Part shown: positions 10,654-18,530 of the stretch, one piece after another | How the letters are laid out: each line of letters opens with the position of its first letter | Numbering within the stretch: the first letter of the stretch is position 1 | Assembly (NCBI GenBank): GCA_902763685.1 | Contig: CACWTF010000018.1 | Coordinates: 1 to 45,425, forward strand | Length of the DNA: 45,425 bases | Direction: 5' to 3' | From: a methanogenic archaeon | GTDB lineage: Archaea > Thermoplasmatota > Thermoplasmata > Methanomassiliicoccales > Methanomethylophilaceae | Position numbers and translations under genes: made by a program | Notes under the pieces: generated by a model | What the model was told of the DNA's origin: nothing | The model's input: the letters and a program-made list of their open reading frames with translations, nothing else | Database searches by the model: none

Positions 10654-10731
10654 TGGTAGCGAGGGGACGATTTGAACGTCTGATCTCCGGGTTATGAGCC
10701 CGACGGGATATCCTGGCTACCCTACCTCGCT
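10654..10731 (-). tRNA. Initiator tRNA-Met (CAU)
   Basis: Minus-strand cloverleaf with anticodon CAT in loop CTCATAA, flanked by three G-C pairs (GGG/CCC), an A1-U72 acceptor pair (AGCGAGG / CCTCGCT), D-loop with AGCCAGG and T-loop TTCAAAT. The GGG/CCC anticodon stem and A1-U72 mark the archaeal initiator. CCA (minus strand of 10654-10656) is encoded. No intron. The outermost T-stem pair reads A-C, a mismatch as I fold it. Confidence 0.93.
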
Positions 10732-15092: not shown

Positions 15093-15125
15093 GGTTTAAT
15101 TGCGCGTGTAGGTGTGGGGTGGGCA

Positions 15126-16124
15126 ATGAAAGCGAAACGGATGCCCAATGAGCTGGAAGCCTCTTGGTCCGAAGACGATATGGTCTCGGGGGAGACCGTC
15201 AGGGCCCAGGTGTTGATCATGCGTACGAACGGATGCTGCTGGGCGAAGGCCGGCAGCGGAGGATGCACCATGTGCGGATACCGTACGGCATCCCTTTCCA
15301 ACGTGACCGAGGATGACCTCAACGCTCAGATCGACCAGGCACTGTCCAAGTACCGCGGCGAACCGTTCGTCAAGATCTACACCTCCGGGAGTTTCTTCGA
15401 TACTGATGAGATCCCTGTATCCGTCCGCGAGAGGGTGTTCCGCGAGTATGCATCCTGCAAGAGGATCCTCGTCGAGAGCAGGCCGGAGTTCCTCACCGAC
15501 GAACTCGTCGCCACCCTGCCGAAGAACCTGACCGTCGCGCTGGGTCTCGAGTCCTCCAACGAAGAGGTGCTGTGCAGATGCATCAACAAGGGATTCACCG
15601 CGGCACAGAGCCGGGAAGCGGGCATGAGGCTTAAGGCCGCCGGCATCGGCGTCAGAACCTATCTGCTTCTGAAGCCCCCGTTCCTCAGCGAGCAGGCCGG
15701 GATGGACGATGCCATCGCCTCCGCCAGGTTCGCGGACCCGTTCTCCGACGAGATCTCGATCAACCCCCTCAACATCCAACACGGCACCTATGTGGAGAGG
15801 CTGTGGAAGAGAGGGGACTTCAGATCTCCTTGGATATGGTCTCTCATCGAGGTCATGAAAAAGCTGTCTGGCACTGTTAATGCGAGGCTCATGTCATCCC
15901 CGTCCGGAGGAGGTTCCCAGAGAGGCGTCCACAACTGCGGCAAATGCGATGCCGCGGCCCTGTCCGCCGTGGAGAGGTTCTCCTTCTCCCAGAACCCCGC
16001 CGATCTCGAGGTGTCATGCGAATGTAAATTAACCTGGGAGCAATACCTGAAAGCAGAGAAGCTGTTGGGGACCTCCGCCGACATCGGACGTGCACTCGAC
16101 AGCGAACTAACGATAAGGATGTGA
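15126..16124 (+). CDS. Archaeosine-biosynthesis radical SAM enzyme RaSEA-like
   Basis: A 332-residue radical SAM protein of the TIGR01210/COG1244 type. The cluster motif region reads MRTNGCCWAKAG then GGCTMCGY, the unusual Cys spacing of this family; further Cys residues near the C-terminus (HNCGKC and SCECK) also fit. In archaea with this protein, RaSEA works with ArcS to convert preQ0-lysine-tRNA into archaeosine at position 15. No arcS or tgt gene is in the window. ATG 15126 is preferred; a GTG at 15114 is possible. Coupled to the next gene through ATGTGAGCGAAATG. Confidence 0.8.
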   Translation: MKAKRMPNELEASWSEDDMVSGETVRAQVLIMRTNGCCWAKAGSGGCTMCGYRTASLSNVTEDDLNAQIDQALSKYRGEPFVKIYTSGSFFDTDEIPVSVRERVFREYASCKRILVESRPEFLTDELVATLPKNLTVALGLESSNEEVLCRCINKGFTAAQSREAGMRLKAAGIGVRTYLLLKPPFLSEQAGMDDAIASARFADPFSDEISINPLNIQHGTYVERLWKRGDFRSPWIWSLIEVMKKLSGTVNARLMSSPSGGGSQRGVHNCGKCDAAALSAVERFSFSQNPADLEVSCECKLTWEQYLKAEKLLGTSADIGRALDSELTIRM

Positions 16125-16474: not shown

Positions 16475-16752
16475 GCCTGCCGAAGGCCGGACCAAACCCC
16501 TTCCCATTTTTTCCCTTATTATTATAGGAGACGCGTGAGCAGTCTTTATATATAACCTGCCCATACCACGGTTTAGATTGGACATACTCTATGTCCGACC
16601 AGACACATCGGGCAATGCATCGCAACCCACGATCGCCACCAGCCTTCGGGCGTTTTGGCGGCGAACAAGGTGTCACGGTCGGTTCATGAAGGCGTTCGTC
16701 TGAAAATATAGCGCGAGGTTAGCGAAGAGACCCTCGCAGGTATGTGTAAAAT
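16475..16752 (+). promoter_or_regulatory. Leader region of the ribosomal protein operon with a structured RNA domain
   Basis: A 278-bp gene-free stretch. A TATA box (TTTATATATA, 16545-16554) predicts a transcript from about 16575. Hairpin 1: GGACATA-CTC-TATGTCC, 16580-16596. A larger domain follows: stems 16595-16600/16677-16682 (CCGACC/GGTCGG) and 16602-16606/16670-16674 (GACAC/GTGTC) enclose hairpins, including CGCCA/TGGCG (16634-16638/16656-16660) capped by GCC-UUCG-GGC. Hairpin 1 and the closing stem share bases 16595-16596, so they are mutually exclusive at that point. A second TATA-like AAAATATA (16703-16710) and a GCGAGG/CCTCGC hairpin (16713-16718/16732-16737) precede uL3. A 32-codon frame (16591-16689) lies across the domain. 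It could be an autoregulatory leader, a separate small RNA, or a leader peptide gene. Confidence 0.5.
16545..16554 (+). promoter_or_regulatory. Distal TATA box of the ribosomal protein operon
   Basis: TTTATATATA, the strongest TATA-like sequence in the gap; transcript start expected ~16575. Confidence 0.6.
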
Positions 16753-17748
16753 ATGCCGCAAAGAAGACGCCCAAAGAAGGGATCCAGGGCATTCGGCCCT
16801 AGGAAGAGAGCAAAATCGCAGACGCCCAGGTTAGACTCCTGGCCCGAGATCAGCGGAGCCCCTAAGATTCAGGGATTCGCCGGATACAAGGCAGGAATGA
16901 CCCACGCGTTTGTCGTTGACAAGAACGCAAAGAGCACCACCTCCGGCATGGAAGTCCAGACTCCCGTGACCGTTGTCGAGGTACCCCCCATGAAGATCGC
17001 TGCTGTCAGGTTCTACGAGCAGCAGATCGACGGACTCAAGACCGCCGGTGAGGTATGGGCAGCAGACGTTGACCCCATGCTTGACCGCAGGGTCAACATC
17101 CCCAAGAGGGGAGAGCCCGACTTCTCCAGGTTCGACAATCTCGACGTCGAGGACGTCCGCGTCCTCGCCTACACCCAGCCCAAGCTCATCAGCGGTGTAC
17201 CCAAGAAGGTACCCGACCTCATGGAGCTCAGGATCGGTGGAGGTGTGATGAAAGAGAGGATCGAGTACGCCAAGGGCATCCTCGGAAAAGAGGTCACCAT
17301 CACCGACTTCGCAGCCGAGGGAGCCATCATCGACGTCATCGCCATCACCAAAGGTAAGGGATTCCAGGGAGCCACCAAGAGGTGGGGAATCAAGCTGCTG
17401 TCCCACAGGAACAGCAAGCACCGCCGCGGAATCGGTAACCTTGGTCCTAAGAGGCCTGGATACGTAAGGTCCACCGTACCTCTTCCCGGACAGATGGGAT
17501 ACCACCAGAGGACTGAGCTCAACAAGAAGATCATCAAAGTCGGAACCGACGGCAAGGAAGTAAGCCCCAAGGGCGGATTCAACAACTACGGAGAGGTCAG
17601 GAACACCTACGTTCTCGTGAAAGGCTCCGTACCCGGACCCACCAAGAGGCTCATCAGATTCAGGGACGGAACCAGGGTCTCTGCAAAGATGGACACCAGT
17701 GCAGCCGAGGTCACCTATGTTTCGACCGAATCCAAGCAGGGAGCATGA
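16753..17748 (+). CDS. rpl3: Ribosomal protein uL3
   Basis: A 331-residue archaeal uL3, first gene of the operon. The N-terminus RRPKKGSRAFGPRKRAKS is the archaeal/eukaryotic form, and the central HRRGIGNLGPKRPGYVRST loop reaches the peptidyl transferase centre. Normal length for archaea. Preceded by a structured leader; only a weak AGGT lies before the start, so translation may depend on the leader or on the proximal promoter giving a short leader. Confidence 0.97.
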   Translation: MPQRRRPKKGSRAFGPRKRAKSQTPRLDSWPEISGAPKIQGFAGYKAGMTHAFVVDKNAKSTTSGMEVQTPVTVVEVPPMKIAAVRFYEQQIDGLKTAGEVWAADVDPMLDRRVNIPKRGEPDFSRFDNLDVEDVRVLAYTQPKLISGVPKKVPDLMELRIGGGVMKERIEYAKGILGKEVTITDFAAEGAIIDVIAITKGKGFQGATKRWGIKLLSHRNSKHRRGIGNLGPKRPGYVRSTVPLPGQMGYHQRTELNKKIIKVGTDGKEVSPKGGFNNYGEVRNTYVLVKGSVPGPTKRLIRFRDGTRVSAKMDTSAAEVTYVSTESKQGA

Positions 17749-17753
17749 TTTGA

Positions 17754-18530
17754 ATGACCACAACCAACGTTTATTCTGTTAAAGGTGAGGTTTCCGGTAC
17801 CATCGAGGTTCCCGCAGCATTCAACACCGCTTACAGGCCCGACATCATCAAGAAGGCCATTCTCGCAGCCGCAGCCAACAGCAGGCAGGCATACGGACCC
17901 AACCCTAGGTCCGGTATGAGGCACTCTGTCAGCACCTGGGGAAAAGGACGCGGAGTTGCACGCGTACAGCGTCTCCACGACGGAAGGAAAGCAACCCAGT
18001 CCCCCAACAACGTCTCCGGTAGGAGGGCACACCCCCCGAAAGTCGAGAAGATCTGGGACCAGAAGGTCAACAAGAAAGAGCTCAAGATCGCCCGCCTCTC
18101 CGCACTCGCCGCAACCGCATGTGCAGACTGCGTCAAGGCCCGCGGACACAAGTTCGACGACAACGTGACCTTCCCCATCGTAGTTGACGACGCATTCAAC
18201 GACGTCAAGACCACCGCAGAGGTCGAGGCATTCTTCGACGCAATCGGAATCGGATACGATATCGAGCGTGCCAAGGACGGAACCAAGATCCGCGCCGGTA
18301 AGGGAAAGATGAGGAACAGGAAGTACAGGACCCCTGTATCTGTTCTTATAGTAATATCTGATAAAGACAGGGCCGCAGCCGTATTCAAGGGCGCCAACAA
18401 CCTGCCCGGTGTCGAGGTCGAGGAGATCAGCACACTGAACACCAGCCTGCTCGCTCCCGGAGGAGACGCAGGAAGGCTCACTGTCTACACCAAATCCGCC
18501 ATCGCAAAGATCGGAGAGTGGACCGAATGA
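17754..18530 (+). CDS. rpl4: Ribosomal protein uL4
   Basis: A 258-residue uL4. The long tunnel loop carries GMRHSVSTWGKGRGVARVQ and the Arg-rich GRRAHPPKVEK. It starts 5 nt after uL3. In bacteria L4 represses its own operon by binding the leader; whether this archaeal copy does so with the structured region upstream of uL3 is open. Confidence 0.97.
   Translation: MTTTNVYSVKGEVSGTIEVPAAFNTAYRPDIIKKAILAAAANSRQAYGPNPRSGMRHSVSTWGKGRGVARVQRLHDGRKATQSPNNVSGRRAHPPKVEKIWDQKVNKKELKIARLSALAATACADCVKARGHKFDDNVTFPIVVDDAFNDVKTTAEVEAFFDAIGIGYDIERAKDGTKIRAGKGKMRNRKYRTPVSVLIVISDKDRAAAVFKGANNLPGVEVEEISTLNTSLLAPGGDAGRLTVYTKSAIAKIGEWTE

Follow-up and report, generated by a model that had tools for sequence, protein, structure and literature searches.

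A structured RNA domain conserved in the leader of the uL3 ribosomal protein operon of Thermoplasmatota archaea

The uL3 operon and its leader

The window, the whole 45,425-nucleotide stretch of DNA analysed here, is contig 18 in a 1.54-Mb draft genome. Methyl-coenzyme M reductase (mcrA) is present in this genome and the named relatives reached by our searches are Thermoplasmatota, so the host is a methanogenic Thermoplasmatota archaeon, probably of the Methanomassiliicoccales. The ribosomal protein operon is on the forward strand and opens with uL3 (16753-17748; PF00297, E = 9e-85), followed by uL4 (17754-18530; PF00573, E = 2.4e-36), the second gene, whose product is the candidate ligand considered below. 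On the 5' side of the leader lie a radical-SAM gene (15114-16124) and a DUF5611 gene (PF18446; 16121-16474), and this gene pair sits immediately 5' of the uL3 leader throughout the order. The 278 bases from the DUF5611 stop codon to uL3 contain the TATA box and the leader. The sole known RNA gene found in the window is a tRNA-Met (CAT) on the minus strand at 10654-10731.

The putative uL3 operon promoter has its TATA box, TTTATATATA, at 16545-16554 (+). The transcript is predicted from the TATA spacing to begin at 16575-16579 (+), where the motif AGATT, conserved in the family, lies about 26 nt past the centre of the box. Downstream is a domain of about 88 nt, D1 (16595-16682, +), a three-way junction of helices P2, P3, and P4 closed by P1 and P2, defined by covariance-model matches and by covariation. 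The 5' strand of P1 (16595-16600, +) pairs with 16677-16682; its outer pairs show two-sided changes and its inner CC/GG is kept in 86/86 diverse copies. The 5' strand of P2 (16602-16606, +) pairs with 16670-16674, and its first pair is GC in 68 copies, UA in 14, and AU in 3, while its fourth is GC in 41 and AU in 39. The two helices are separated by a 1x2 internal loop in which A16601 (+; A in 85/86) faces A16675-C16676 (AC in 86/86), and their 3' strands read GUGUC-AC-GGUCGG (16670-16682, +). Closing stems of 6 and 5 bp with a 1x2 internal loop had been proposed in the original prediction at exactly these bases. P3 (16610-16628, +) is a hairpin built from a nearly invariant GGG/CCC, a CAA/N internal loop, and the upper helix P3b, whose pairs vary among diverse D1 copies as UA:75/CG:6 and GC:61/UA:14/CG:4. 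The D1 copies of L109, L123, and L124 (family f8) are without P3b, which makes this upper part of P3 dispensable. The outer stem of P4 (16633-16664, +) is variable and the U-rich 3' internal loop is conserved; two-sided changes occur in 8/8 modelled pairs, and the helix also emerges when RNAalifold is run on a separately built MAFFT alignment. An enclosed hairpin with a UUCG cap had been predicted as well; the cap is present in the window at 16645-16648 but is not conserved, and the apical loop varies freely.

The remainder of the leader folds into hairpins on either side of D1. P0, GGACAUA-CUC-UAUGUCC (16580-16596, +; 16580-16586 with 16590-16596), overlaps P1 by its last two bases. Among leaders of the window's own family, 77% of P0 cells are paired and two-sided changes number 14 compared with 6.3 in shuffles, so that P0 is moderately conserved there with support below that of the other helices. 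P6 is a short hairpin, AGGC-GUUC-GUCU (16690-16701, +), with 67% of cells paired and two-sided changes at 4/4 pairs in an uncertain alignment; its support is weaker than that of P5. P5 (16713-16737, +) has the stem GCGAGG/CCUCGC and the loop UUAGCGAAGA.A and lies just 5' of the ribosome-binding region. In 28 sequences from the window's own family P5 is almost invariant, with 100% of cells paired and compensatory pairs GC:20/AU:8 and CG:27/UA:1, and it is also recovered by RNAalifold. Within the order, the P5 loop motif UUAGCG.AAGA recurs, by inspection, in sister families in a different stem context. The presumed ribosome-binding region, AGGUAUGUGUAAAAU (16738-16752, +), is assigned from its position between P5 and the start codon; the Shine-Dalgarno of the window's species is weak (-3.9 kcal/mol). 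Two further candidates in the leader were rejected. In the minimum-energy fold the 5' strand of P0 pairs at long range with the pre-start region, a pairing that by inspection is not kept where P0 changes, and the start codon of a short open reading frame, ATGAAGGCGTTCGTCTGA (16686-16703), is lost in relatives.

Covariation and invariant bases of D1

The 91-nt domain folds with -37.4 kcal/mol (z = -2.9; 0/200 shuffles as good) and the leader as a whole gives a folding z of -2.3. The folding energy of D1 alone is moderately unusual; conservation and covariation are much stronger evidence. Alignment A4 contains 86 diverse D1 copies and is fitted to the model, hence it leans towards the model; in it 91.4% of cells pair, 20/26 pairs show two-sided changes, and two-sided compensatory cells number 450 compared with 129.6 in shuffles. 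The A4 covariation score is 0.499, a value reached in 0/500 shuffles, versus 0.160 for shuffled alignments, and all slid registers score 0.111 or less. When 28 leaders from the window's own family were aligned independently with MAFFT, RNAalifold recovered P1 through P4 together with P5 unaided. Conservation and compensatory stem changes in related species had been set beforehand as a test of the prediction, and both were found, in A4 and in the family alignment. Fold, conservation, and covariation together confirm a structured RNA domain within the uL3 operon leader. A protein-coding origin of the conservation was rejected: loop lengths vary by 1-2 bases among relatives and the changes follow base pairing.

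The invariant bases read CCA.AC ... GGG-CAA ... CCC ... GU.ACGG and cluster in the P1/P2 loop and in P3, and this clustering suggests a specific surface for recognition. The sequence pattern makes A16601 and its opposing AC a likely recognition point. These bases also bear on the idea that D1 has no ligand and acts as a 5' mRNA stabilizer, a processing signal, or an enhancer of translation initiation. Such a role fits the predicted position of D1 at the transcript 5' end and calculated thermodynamics that show no ligand-dependent switch; nevertheless, the A/AC and CAA loops are nearly invariant in 86 sequences, beyond the needs of a plain stabilizing stem, and one family does well without D1. 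We consider a ligand-free D1 improbable.

Searches with Rfam models at gathering and at permissive thresholds returned chance matches only in the window and in 12 diverse D1 loci. The RF03135 model gave no match in the window (E up to 10) or in the 12 diverse loci (E up to 1). On these comparisons D1 is a new RNA family, absent from Rfam 15; a literature search, mainly outside subscription papers, found no report of D1, and an earlier description is possible. The original prediction had not recognised the domain as SRP RNA, RNase P RNA, or a tRNA, and this holds: Rfam gives no match, and ARAGORN and Rfam give just the one tRNA at 10654-10731. The genome's RNase P RNA sits elsewhere (G000:C74:716-1013). 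An E. coli-type S10/L4 leader was set aside for lack of an Rfam match and of a terminator-like site in a bacterial-type scan. Similarity to the rRNA sites of ribosomal proteins was sought in the 23S and 16S loci by covariance search with filters off (best E = 1.1) and by a motif scan for D1 likeness, which was negative. A 23S match at E = 3.9 was rejected because it joins CCAGAC to GUCACGG, segments that we take not to be paired with each other in the 23S structure. A resemblance between P3 and GGGCAAACUGAAUCCC of 23S domain I was also dropped, since the CCC of that segment pairs downstream (by inspection) and some leaders have no P3b. The likeness of D1 to 23S and 16S rRNA is no better than chance, so a ligand cannot be named from mimicry.

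Genomic position and distribution

A blastn search with the leader matched 44/61 genomes of the order, and in distant matches only the segment equal to the originally predicted domain remains. Two covariance models were used, R1, built from 43 sequences, and a broader model, R2. R1 located D1 in 128/147 genomes of the order, including 74/74 near-complete ones, and D1 occurs once per genome, save for one genome in which a weak second match was seen. In a phylum-wide draw of 293 genomes, R1 found D1 in 174 and R2 in 218. When 11 apparent misses were re-read with filters off, D1 was upstream of uL3 in 5/11, and two of these five copies carry large insertions in P3. Large P3 insertions (72 and 37 bases) characterize the D1 copies of L281 and L270, both missed by the default search filters. 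D1 is absent from five f7 genomes (L272-L275, L278) and from one f14 genome (L276); where these loci were read, a TATA-like box lies near the uL3 start and the leader is very short. D1 has thus been lost or replaced in f7 and in the f14 genome, with loss in at least one family. Outside the phylum, D1 was not matched in any of 631 genomes drawn from the phyla of Haloarcula (295), Methanocaldococcus (36), and Metallosphaera (300), in searches that used the stricter filters for large sets and had no positive control inside each set. Weak matches to the D1 model in Halococcus, Haladaptatus, Haloarcula, and Aramenus were rejected, none being at uL3. As delimited by model matches, D1 is a Thermoplasmatota-wide RNA family that extends across nearly the whole phylum.

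The position of D1 is constant. It lies upstream of uL3 at every locus read inside the order and directly upstream of uL3-uL4 at 40/40 sampled loci from more than 15 families outside it; six named Thermoplasmatota loci, five of them new and one already among the 40, likewise have D1 directly 5' of uL3-uL4. At 34/47 diverse loci a TATA-like box precedes the D1 core by 30-95 nt, compared with about 11% in shuffles. The operon transcript therefore most likely has D1 at its 5' end. The same 34/47 loci suggest a promoter upstream of D1 rather than only one near 16735; that proximal promoter had been considered and is without support, and the conserved P5 hairpin occupies its site. The original prediction had also allowed for a stand-alone RNA. 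A non-coding RNA merely adjoining uL3 would be consistent with the compact independent fold of D1 and with the 300-nt spacer in L117, but D1 was never found away from uL3, every one of about 90 loci examined places it directly 5' of that gene, a bacterial-type scan of the window detected nothing resembling a terminator in the D1-uL3 interval, and several genomes have a 5-nt spacer with the Shine-Dalgarno 2 nt after P1. These observations disfavour a stand-alone RNA, a reading that we regard as very improbable. D1 is almost certainly a conserved, cis-located structured RNA.

Proposed control of the uL3 operon and comparison with known leaders

We propose that D1 is probably a cis-acting ribosomal-protein leader (r-leader) through which a ribosomal protein of its own operon controls expression. 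An operon-made ribosomal protein in excess over rRNA would bind D1, and this binding would reduce the translation of uL3 and of the genes that follow. The protein would contact the invariant parts of D1, namely the A/AC loop that separates P1 from P2 and, in P3, the GGG-CAA/CCC element. The most likely candidate would be uL4, and next uL3; the assignment of uL4 is tentative and made by precedent, from the E. coli S10 leader (PMC10931766) and the predicted leader of Archaeoglobi (PMC7247131).

The output can be pictured most directly in f8 and f9, two Thermoplasmatales-like families. At 16/16 of their loci a Shine-Dalgarno (GGUGAU or AGGUGA) starts 2-15 nt past P1, and at 16/16 it precedes the start codon by 3-6 nt; the 16S tail read in related loci is GGATCACCTCC. 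Because the Shine-Dalgarno directly follows P1, a protein clamping D1 closed could block ribosome loading in these genomes. P1 as a bare Shine-Dalgarno switch was rejected: access changes little in most loci when P1 is forced or forbidden. Competition between P0 and P1 had been put forward as a switch, and part of that claim stands in that C16595 and C16596 are shared and P0 is moderately conserved; however, the overlap is merely two bases, and forcing or forbidding P1 generally leaves Shine-Dalgarno access unchanged in silico, so these models do not support the P0/P1 overlap as a thermodynamic switch. With a bare RNA switch not supported in silico, a bound factor would be needed.

The distance from D1 to the start codon is 23-300 nt in most lineages and 5 nt in several genomes, in which the Shine-Dalgarno begins 2 nt past P1. 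Outside f8 and f9, D1 is 23-300 nt from the start codon and its output must differ. In the window's order the signal would pass through P6 and P5 before the start codon, with P5 the likely output part. The recognition part of D1 thus appears conserved and the output part appears to differ between lineages. The 300-nt spacer of L117 (G261) apparently holds more hairpins. At L097, L099, L102, L103, L133, and L134 (f26, f34), an extended P1 3' strand continues into CUCC(U), complementary to the downstream Shine-Dalgarno GGAGG. This extension could be an output of opposite logic.

Signals other than an operon-encoded protein were weighed against this proposal. A riboswitch for a growth-tied small molecule or ion, controlling ribosomal protein synthesis, would account for two features. 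The invariant bases gather, like those of many aptamers, in the internal loops of a compact three-way junction. In addition, r-leaders are as a rule lineage-specific, and the phylum-wide range of D1 exceeds that of most of them (PMC7247131; PMC10931766 for the E. coli-type uL4 site). D1, however, is single-copy and found only at the uL3 operon, whereas metabolite riboswitches usually recur at biosynthesis or transport genes, and known cis-elements in such a place respond to ribosomal proteins. We hold a riboswitch to be unlikely. D1 might instead be bound by a regulator encoded elsewhere, such as L7Ae, another RNA-binding protein, or an assembly factor. L7Ae does control archaeal mRNAs through k-turns (PMC5539422), but the sole small asymmetric loops of D1, A/AC and CAA/N, are by inspection without tandem G-A pairs, and the protein bound by known r-leaders is one that their own operon encodes (PMC7247131). 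A regulator encoded elsewhere is accordingly given a low probability, and an L7Ae k-turn in particular was rejected by inspection because the consensus loops show no three-base bulge followed by tandem G-A pairs. Taken broadly, we allow a small chance that D1 is an ancient Thermoplasmatota RNA sensing a metabolite, an ion, or an assembly factor and not an operon-encoded ribosomal protein. If so, the whole phylum would couple ribosome synthesis to that signal via one aptamer with lineage-specific outputs.

Few archaeal cis-regulatory RNAs are known or even predicted (PMC7247131), and D1 stands nearly phylum-wide before a major ribosomal operon and is not in Rfam 15. Most r-leaders are narrowly distributed, whereas D1 is retained in lineages ranging from acidophiles to methanogens of the gut, which suggests selection that is both old and strong. 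D1 would be a well-supported family to add for archaeal genome annotation. As a defined 88-nt RNA, it has invariant bases that can be tested for uL3 or uL4 binding, and the natural series of D1 elements with start-codon distances of 5 to 300 nt makes the output mechanism comparable across lineages.

A close archaeal counterpart is the L4-Archaeoglobi r-leader (RF03135; PMC11701678), which has uL4 as its predicted ligand and was reported together with a general r-leader pattern (Eckert and Weinberg 2020, PMC7247131). Like D1, it is a structured leader of an archaeal operon starting with uL3, uL4, uL23, and uL2 (PMC7247131). It differs in being confined to Archaeoglobi and was called borderline by its authors (PMC7247131), and its model misses D1; the D1 model in turn was negative in the 295 genomes of Haloarcula's phylum, a set that may not include Archaeoglobi. 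In E. coli, uL4 acts on the S10 leader, also a structured 5' leader in the same position of the same type of operon, one encoding uL4 (PMC10931766). The E. coli leader has another fold and sequence, and E. coli also controls transcription via NusA and a terminator. The E. coli-type uL4 site occurs in some gamma-proteobacteria only (PMC10931766), whereas D1 spans a phylum. The eL15-Euryarchaeota and archaeal S15 r-leaders are likewise archaeal cis-acting elements that ribosomal proteins are presumed to read (PMC7247131), but they precede other genes, their Rfam models miss D1, and the rRNA mimicry that they display is not detectable in D1. Archaeal uL1 autoregulation is a further case of translational control by a ribosomal protein in archaea (PMC10931766); its sites are on other mRNAs and resemble the 23S site of uL1, in contrast to D1, in which no rRNA likeness is detectable. 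As an analogy only, given its different protein, gene, and sequence, the Bacillus/Thermus uS15 leader can serve as a working analogue of the Thermoplasmatales arrangement: it is a three-way junction near the ribosome-binding site that is stabilized by the protein and stops ribosome loading (PMC10931766).
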